Shown in pieces: positions 8,501 to 37,384 of a DNA stretch of 64,000 nt. The stretch lies in NCBI GenBank assembly GCA_964019415.1, contig OZ025874.1, positions 9,022,409 to 9,086,408 on the forward strand, read 5' to 3'. The notes beneath the pieces were generated by a model. That model saw only the letters and a program-made list of their open reading frames with translations, did not search any database and was not told where the DNA came from. Origin of the DNA: Ianthella basta. Taxonomy: Eukaryota > Porifera > Demospongiae > Verongiida > Ianthellidae. Both the position numbers and the translations under genes were made by a program. How positions within the stretch are numbered: the stretch's first letter is position 1; each line of letters starts with the position of its first letter.

Positions 8501-11500
8501 CCATGTGATGCTCGGATGCTAAAGATCTTGGATCTGGAACAAGGGACTTCCCCTTCTTGCCTGTTGCCATGGGAGCAAAGCACACAAGCTCAATCTCATC
8601 ATGAAGTCTGCTACGTACAAGGCATTCTACGTACAGTATATATGTACATGTTTACACACCCTCCCACAGGCACAGACTGGGCCCATCTCTATTACATTCC
8701 TTCTATGAACAACTGTGTAGCACATTCTACATGTATGCATATATAAACACACACATGCATGCACCCACCTTTGACCAGTTTCACCTCAGACTGTGTCAGT
8801 CGAGGTGCGCTGAGGAACACCAGCCTCCTTGTCCTTGCACCAGTCCTCTTGTCCTGGACGTCCTCAACAACAAACTGACCAGAGTGCTCTGAGTATCCTT
8901 TGTGCTGCACTGTTCTGAGTCCTAGGTCATCACCCAGGGAGAGGACTGGCCACTGGAGGGGGGGAGGGACAGAGGAGAGGAAGGGAGGAGGGGAGGAGGA
9001 GAGGAAGGGAGGAGGGGAGCAGGGGAAGAGGGGAGAGGAGAGGAAGGAAGGAGGGGAGGAAGGAAGGGGAAGGTACAGAGTGCACAAAGAGGAGAAAGTA
9101 AGAGAATCTGGTAAAATGCTGAATTACATACGTATATAGTGTAAGCCACAAAGGCAGCAAGTACAAATCTGCTACATACAATATGGCATTATATAGGACA
9201 GCACACACAAGTTTGTTGGAAACAAAAAGTTCTCTTTCCCCTACCACTCCATTTACTGTATCAGTGCACTGCATGCTAACAGACAGACTAGGGGAAAGCT
9301 ACAGATCAACACATAATGGTATCCACCAGTCCCACCTGTTTGTCTCCCACCAGTCCCACCTGTTTGTCACCCACCAGTCCCACCTGTTTGTCACCCACCA
9401 GTCCCACCTGTTTGTCACCCACCAGTCCCACCTGTTTGTCACCCACCAGTCCCACCTGTTTGTCACCCACCAGTCCCACCTGTTTGTCACCCACCAGTCC
9501 CACCTGTTTGTCACCCACCACTCCTACCTGTTTGTTTCCCTTTCCCTGTGCCTGTGATTGGGCAAACTGAACTGCAGTGTCTGCTATTTCACTCTTCACA
9601 TCATCCAGGCTACCGTAGCTATGGAGACGGTGGAGTGTCACCACCACCACTCGCTGGAAACCTGTGCACAATAATCATGTGTCACATGACAGTCATATGA
9701 CAATCACATGACATGCTACTACATAAACACATGCACACACCGGCACTGGCTGCCAACTGTTGAAGACCAGCATCTGCTACAAAGAGCCAATCAGATTCTC
9801 TGTATAAAACAAAGAGAACACAGACTAATTAAATAATTAATTGGACTATCAAATCTACTGTACTGAAATACACTGCCATTAGAATTACAAATAAATACAA
9901 AATTAGACAATTTTACACTCTGCATCCAATACATACACCTACGTAGCCCACACACACACACACACACACACACACACACACGCACACACAATCACACACA
10001 CACACACACACACACACACACACACACACACACACACACACACACACACACACACACACACACACACACACACACACACACACACAATCACACACACACA
10101 AACACACACACACACGTACGCATGCATGCACACACACCTGCCGTGTGGGACAATGAAGAGTGCAAAAGGACCACTCTTTGCCTGTTTGTGTGTGATGTCC
10201 ACCACATGGAGTGTGTAGCGTGGCTCCTCTGCCTCACTGGGGTGCCACAGGTCCACACTCACCACCTCACCGGGGTGGAGTCTGCATGAGAGGGGGAGGG
10301 GAGGGGAGGGGAGGGGAGGGGAGGGGAGGGGAGGGGAGGGGGAGGGGAGGGGGGAGGAGAATGAGAGAACAAAGCATTATGTGGACATCTACGTATGTAT
10401 GTTACATAGTGGCGCATGGAATGTGAAGCATGTAAGCATACATGTGTATACAGTAAATAATGTAATAATGTCTATGGCTGTGTGCTAGTGTACTGTATAA
10501 TGAGTCTGTGTGTGTGCGTGCGTGCGCGTGTGTGTGTGCATGCGCATGTGTGTGTGAGCATACATGTGTGTGTAGCCACCCTGACCACCTGCCCTACCTC
10601 TTGAAGTGGTGTCTGATCATTGCAAACTGTTGGAGAGACTTGACTGTCTCAGTGATGTCCTTGGCAGTGTTGAGACGGGTCAGCTTGTCATTGCCCTCGG
10701 CAACCTCAAACACCTAGTTAGCAGAAACAGCAGTAAAGTACTCATAGGGCAACTAATTTTTGTACATAACATTGAAGTACAACTACGTAATGTCGCTACA
10801 TAAGCTATGTACCAAAAGTACTATTGTATATACTTATATAATTATAAAAGTAGAGTCTGGCCTCTCGCTAATGACATTCATAGGTACTTCACAAACAATG
10901 CCAAATATGGTCATGTAATTCATATAGCTGTTTACTTAAGATCCATTAGATGCCCGCCCCATCCCTCCCTAAGCCTGTATTGATACAGTAAACAGAATTT
11001 TCTTCTTTTTGCAGCAAAATCAAAGGCTGAAGATGGCTCAAGGAGCAGGGTAGGTTGGTGCATGTTAGTAGTACTGTGCTACTTGATGCTGACAGCAAAC
11101 CAAACGCCACAAACAGACACCATCCTCAAATGTGGAGGCAGTTCGGGCTGTTACGTAGCTACATAGTTTGATCATTCTTTGCTGACTTGCTATATACACA
11201 CAGATCACAGATGTACAAAAGCCTCCAACAGCAACTGGAAAGGTATGCAGCACAGACAGAAGAGGAGAGACAGAGACTGGAGCAAGAGAAAGCAGATCTA
11301 AAGAGGAAAGAAGATTCGATCAGGGAAACCCTCCAGGCAGAATATGACAGGAAGAATGAAGAACTACAAGAAACAATTGATAAGAAACAAGAAGAGCTGC
11401 GAGAAATCCGTGATGAACTAGCAGCTGAGAAGAGAGACTGGGAGGAGGAGAAGGAGAGGGTGAAGCAGACCAAGGTGTTTGAGAAGGTCATCACTCTGAA

Positions 11501-37384: not shown

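Follow-up and report, generated by a model that had tools for sequence, protein, structure and literature searches.

The window, a stretch of 64,000 nucleotides of Ianthella basta DNA, holds on its minus strand the gene for METTL13, whose third intron contains on the opposite strand twelve stop-free open reading frames of 343-398 amino acids (g1-g12, Table 1), all twelve of them with a match to the T1/BTB domain PF02214. A thirteenth gene of the same family, g13, runs in the same direction as the nested genes and lies head-to-head with METTL13, just ahead of the METTL13 start (37384), so that an array of 13 genes encloses METTL13 exons 1-3 like an island. Of 19 PF02214 matches in the assembly, 13 are in this array and six elsewhere.

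Table 1. Coding features of the METTL13 locus, the T1/BTB array and the shared upstream element (positions within the window).
Feature	Position	Strand	Remarks
METTL13 gene, start to stop codon	2566..37384	-	12 coding exons in gene model
METTL13 exon 1 (MSLLPK...)	37147..37384	-
METTL13 exon 2	36575..36776	-
METTL13 exon 3	35931..36144	-	directly before large intron; donor within GT repeat
METTL13 intron 3	10714..35930	-	25,217 bp, phase 0; g1-g12 antisense within
METTL13 exon 4	10598..10713	-
METTL13 exons 5-12	2569..10281	-	last exon about 2868-2569
g1	11033..12269	+	exon 1 11033-11049, exon 2 11204-12269
g2	13318..14479	+	exon 1 13318-13340 (by eye), exon 2 13462-14479
g3	16074..17376	+	exon 1 16074-16093, exon 2 16275-17376
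g4	18096..19203	+	long exon; no exon 1 identified
g5	20195..21290	+	long exon; no exon 1 identified
g6	22154..23291	+	long exon; no exon 1 identified
g7	24020..25223	+	exon 1 24020-24039, exon 2 24182-25223
g8	26305..27466	+	exon 1 26305-26327 (homology to g2), exon 2 26449-27466; middle unlike g2
g9	28363..29500	+	long exon; block-duplicate of g6
g10	30232..31435	+	exon 1 30232-30251, exon 2 30394-31435; block-duplicate of g7
g11	32194..33253	+	long exon; exon start uncertain
g12	34285..35338	+	long exon with ATG in frame (34295); orthologs on other contigs form a clade
g13	37892..38912	+	outside METTL13; orthologs on other contigs form a clade
Shared upstream element ATGAGTCAGTGAGTT, TGASTCA core	17601, 19456, 21542, 23524, 25473, 27762, 29733, 31684	+	one before each of g4-g11

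METTL13 exons 3 and 4 (36144-35931 and 10713-10598) are separated by a GT-AG intron of phase 0 across which the reading frame runs on, and the in-phase junction of 35931 with 10713 proposed in the initial annotation is borne out by these splice sites together with the continuous protein. The same two features suggest that the METTL13 transcript is spliced across the whole array. A Pfam scan identified methyltransferase domains in the N-terminal part of the protein, and the C-terminal exons hit PDB entry 5wcj, human METTL13 (E 4.2e-37); exon 6, at about 9799-9738, was identified by eye. METTL13 is single-copy, as a search of the 209-Mb, 96-contig assembly with the N-terminal protein returned four matches, all at the locus and one per exon. 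The remaining readable introns measure about 0.15 to 2.5 kb. Adjoining METTL13 on the minus strand, exons resembling glutamine-fructose-6-phosphate transaminase were noticed by eye at about 140-2200, and Pfam gave no match for two open reading frames of this region.

A short coding exon 1 that ends in phase 2 is recognisable in six of the twelve nested genes (g1, g2, g3, g7, g8 and g10), and a convincing one was sought without success for g4, g5, g6, g9, g11, g12 and g13. Since the long exons of g6 and g9 have no methionine before the T1 core, these two genes need an upstream exon. The proposal of twelve intact two-exon genes thus stands with regard to the twelve open T1/BTB reading frames, whereas the two-exon form holds for six of them and is unproven for the rest. 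Similarly, the T1/BTB part of the proposed T1/BTB-pentapeptide identity applies to all twelve, but the pentapeptide part is short and passes the Pfam cut-off in three of the eight proteins scanned (18103-19200, 24180-25220 and 37893-38909).

Judged by their sequences, the array proteins are T1-type BTB proteins nearest to the KCTD proteins, with KCTD7 and KCTD1 as the sequence-nearest PDB proteins to the T1 domain. Structures predicted as single-chain models consist of a long N-terminal helix (coiled coil), the T1 region, further helices and a short beta-helical end. A Foldseek search of the PDB with the g12 model retrieved KCTD BTB domains with a best E of 6.3e-7 and low TM-scores; in the g4 model the T1 region is poorly predicted, and no PDB match was obtained at E<=0.001. 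Among the PDB matches is KCTD7 of the Cullin-3 complex (8i79), which is a resemblance and no test of binding. KCTD9, for which pentamers are predicted, carries its T1/BTB domain ahead of a pentapeptide-repeat beta-solenoid (PMC9658877), an order that the array proteins may share. By analogy with KCTD9, the array proteins would be oligomeric adaptors, perhaps for Cullin-3. In contrast to the array proteins with their long predicted coiled coil and much shorter putative solenoid, KCTD9 is described there as having a ubiquitin-like N-terminus; Pfam gave no match to such a domain in the eight proteins, whose N-terminus is one long predicted helix.

Comparison of the array genes with each other reveals a mosaic. 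Direct repeats reveal that a block of about 6.2 kb was duplicated once, from g6-g7 to g9-g10, and they also mark the g2/g8 pair. Genes that can hardly be aligned otherwise have been homogenised in two stretches of some 250 bp each, namely the T1 core and 3' end: g6 matches g1, g2, g3, g7, g8, g10 and g12 only at about 282-546 and 924-1170 of its 1170 positions, and all 22 matches of a DNA search of the assembly with g6 fall inside the array. The notion that the METTL13 transcript has to cross 25 kb of near-identical repeats is therefore correct for the T1 core, the 3' end and the one 6.2-kb block duplication but not for whole genes. Between g2 and g8, identity amounts to 93-100% from 140 bp upstream through T1, 30-63% in the middle and 97-100% at the end, and the middle segment looks exchangeable between copies. 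In 69 of 78 gene pairs, silent sites have diverged less within the T1 core than within coil plus middle. The 3' end is likewise less diverged than coil plus middle in 53 of 78 pairs, all 53 belonging to the 55 pairs within g1-g11; of the 23 pairs that include g12 or g13, none displays the lower 3'-end value. Within g1-g11, synonymous divergence has medians of 1.93 (coil), 0.24 (core) and 0.16 (end), with the middle saturated. Pair-specific low synonymous divergence in blocks of otherwise diverged paralogs is the mark of concerted evolution, and gene conversion is its simplest cause, because protein selection cannot equalise silent sites in chosen pairs.

Relatives of the array occur on other contigs, and their linkage to METTL13 recurs. 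A search with g4 yielded 154 proteins, and the 120 listed, many of which share a contig with others, underlie the counts given here. All five METTL13 exon-1 matches are located on contigs whose exact size recurs among the T1 relatives listed (2,028,470 bp, the own contig, and 8,354, 2,378,204, 2,197,371 and 945,168 bp), a shared contig being judged by equal size in bp among cluster representatives and not by name, which is a strong but indirect sign. On the other contigs exon 1 is 72-77% identical, and the 8,354-bp contig combines it with a g13 relative. Two of the six exon-8 matches are on contigs with T1 relatives, namely the own contig and one of 89,102 bp with a g12 relative, and the other four fall on 959-6,101-bp contigs for which no T1 relative is listed. 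METTL13 exons 1 and 8 are both listed with nine own T1P proteins on the 2,028,470-bp contig, which may not be independent of the assembly of the window. With regard to the comparison with related species suggested in the initial annotation, the other contigs show a recurrent linkage of METTL13 to T1 genes, as opposed to a gene order, and the nesting itself is seen only here.

The genes g12 and g13 form ortholog clades (7 and 4 rows, respectively, both at 100/100), which identifies the genes beside METTL13 exons as old, stable members, and the relationships of the inner genes are less clear. Contig 395738, which may represent another haplotype or a close species, encodes seven proteins with best matches to g2, g4, g5, g7, g8, g11 and g12. 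Its g7-like and g11-like proteins are nearly identical to g7 and g11. Its g5-like protein agrees with g5 in the coil (94/101), T1 (64/66) and end (65/73) and at 53/121 positions in the middle, which is nearest to that of g2 in a comparison covering the segmentable proteins (7 of the 39 outside this contig could not be segmented and are omitted). Conversely, the g2-like protein differs in its coil (48/80) and agrees in the middle (100/114). Elsewhere in the assembly, one of four other PF02214 places checked (L012, C17:4964113-4964412) encodes a 332-amino-acid protein of the family, a lone distant paralog that is similar over coil, T1 and end, is 29-35% identical to the array and can be used as an outgroup for the family. 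Another relative, P0031 on a contig of 3,008,228 bp, contains two T1 cores in one open reading frame of 432 amino acids, which suggests a fusion of neighbouring copies.

Intron-nested clusters of this kind are already known, and the array is a variation on them. In Drosophila, twelve antisense GMC oxidoreductase genes are reported in one intron of flotillin-2, and in the honey bee ten such genes lie on the opposite strand within a 90-kb flotillin-2 intron (PMC1847477); the insect cluster is also treated in PMC12734113. An array of this size nested in an unrelated gene had initially been regarded as undescribed, a claim that the Drosophila case overturns. The METTL13 locus has what characterises this kind of array, in-phase host exons with a conserved protein and several antisense reading frames of one family in one intron, and both hosts are unrelated to the family within their one large intron. 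As far as the account in PMC1847477 extends, the flotillin-2 cluster is conserved across species with gene order well kept across orders, whereas at METTL13 the inner genes vary from contig to contig and show block-wise homogenisation; the two clusters also belong to different protein families and hosts. The TipE cluster of sodium-channel subunit genes, nested in a CG18675 intron, is comparable in that related genes share one intron in a long-lived linkage, but it consists of four or so genes, and no mosaic pattern is described in the relevant part of PMC3240667. Further background is provided by the lrrtm genes nested in alpha-catenin introns (PMC3933685) and by interference from nested genes (PMC3192792). 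Among the papers listed by searches on METTL13 nested genes, sponge or Amphimedon KCTD genes, BTB expansions and nested arrays, none reports this locus.

The reading we favour, with a probability of roughly 0.6, is that a T1/BTB array settled at METTL13, was duplicated and homogenised by conversion, and encodes separate KCTD-like adaptors in which a variable segment picks the target. The founder, a T1/BTB gene from a family that combines a coiled coil, a T1 domain, a variable middle and a short pentapeptide-like end, would have settled beside and inside METTL13 in an ancestor shared by several related animals. Tandem and block duplication antisense to METTL13 would have produced the twelve genes of intron 3 and the single one upstream. 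Through ectopic gene conversion the T1 core and 3' end would stay alike, and the middle segments and N-terminal coils would diverge and be exchanged. Each array gene would be its own transcription unit, with METTL13 spliced across the entire array, and the proteins would be KCTD-like adaptors that oligomerise and most plausibly serve Cullin-3, the variable segment selecting the target. If this is right, insects are joined by an early-branching animal in having acquired a large antisense array in the intron of an unrelated host, and a nested array can be locked to its host yet shuffled internally. The locus offers a direct test of how a gene family is shaped by ectopic conversion and by transcription through an essential gene, and it may also offer one of an adaptor repertoire whose target segments are exchangeable.

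The same array could also be a neutral accident, in which real genes were duplicated in tandem in a tolerant intron and conversion and drift produced the mosaic without a recognition function and without regulation by METTL13. This would agree with the observation that nested genes are gained more often than lost, as stated in the portion of PMC3240667 cited, and the ordinary constraint expressed by an omega below 1 over the whole gene in all 11 pairs (0.25-0.53) fits it as well. Poly-A signals show neither enrichment on the gene strand nor a significant depletion on that of METTL13 (8 vs 12.1 expected and 5 vs 8.9), which counts against the favoured reading and fits a neutral origin. However, all twelve reading frames are open, and the METTL13 linkage recurs where exon 1 has only 72-77% identity, which suggests long retention; we consider a neutral origin unlikely, though a serious contender.

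A bolder form of the adaptor reading would have the locus function as a recognition repertoire that shuffles cassettes. Conversion would keep an oligomer and ligase chassis of coil, T1 core and end uniform, middles would be exchanged both between copies and between haplotypes so that every individual has its own set of target-specific degradation adaptors, and the position in an essential host gene would hold the array together. MATH-BTB and F-box adaptor families, which are expanded in nematodes and plants, likewise combine a constant ligase-binding domain with a diversified substrate domain, although their domains differ from those of the array. Positive selection has been reported in those families, whereas in the array omega is below 1 in the middle segment or saturated there (0.23-0.64 in the four measurable pairs, six others saturated). 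Omega exceeds 1 solely in the coil of g7/g10 (1.22, on six changes), and positive selection was not demonstrated by omega in the pairs compared. We regard such a repertoire as rather improbable.

An arrangement of clustered variable exons, in which alternative splicing would link a small number of promoters and short first exons to many long second exons, would account for the seven genes without an identifiable exon 1, and every long exon with a readable acceptor is phase-compatible with the six known first exons. Against it, ATGAGTCAGTGAGTT precedes each of g4-g11 and TCTATTAGAYGCCC precedes g1, g2, g3 and g8, a distribution that fits separate promoters, and the long exon of g12 carries its own in-frame ATG. 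ATGAGTCAGTGAGTT has nine sites at <=2 mismatches (0.44 expected), eight of them before g4-g11 and the ninth at 4967 on the minus strand; TCTATTAGAYGCCC has four sites (0.48 expected). Their recurrence may stem in part from the common descent of duplicated units. We consider shared first exons quite improbable. Wrong placement of the T1P array between two METTL13 halves is very unlikely, even if high-identity repeats can mislead assemblers and the nesting is seen in one genome only, because the window is without N and METTL13 exon 1 lies with T1 relatives on further contigs, including one as short as 8,354 bp, to which the exon 8 and g12 relative on the 89,102-bp contig and the joint presence of both exons and array proteins on the possibly non-independent own contig can be added.

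Several further features of the window are recorded here. Upstream of g2, at 13170-13283, lies a foldback element whose inverted repeat is nearly perfect (DNA fold z -16.9). It is flanked by an 8-bp direct repeat and is missing from the sister unit upstream of g8. It is likely a MITE-like insertion that followed the duplication, the type being assigned by the length of the repeat. A minisatellite occupies 40450-43107, where all three minus-strand frames are open (885, 828 and 807 amino acids), for which reason the long reading frame there was rejected as evidence of a gene. On the minus strand at 46966-47742, an open reading frame encodes an immunoglobulin domain (PF00047, E 1.7e-8).
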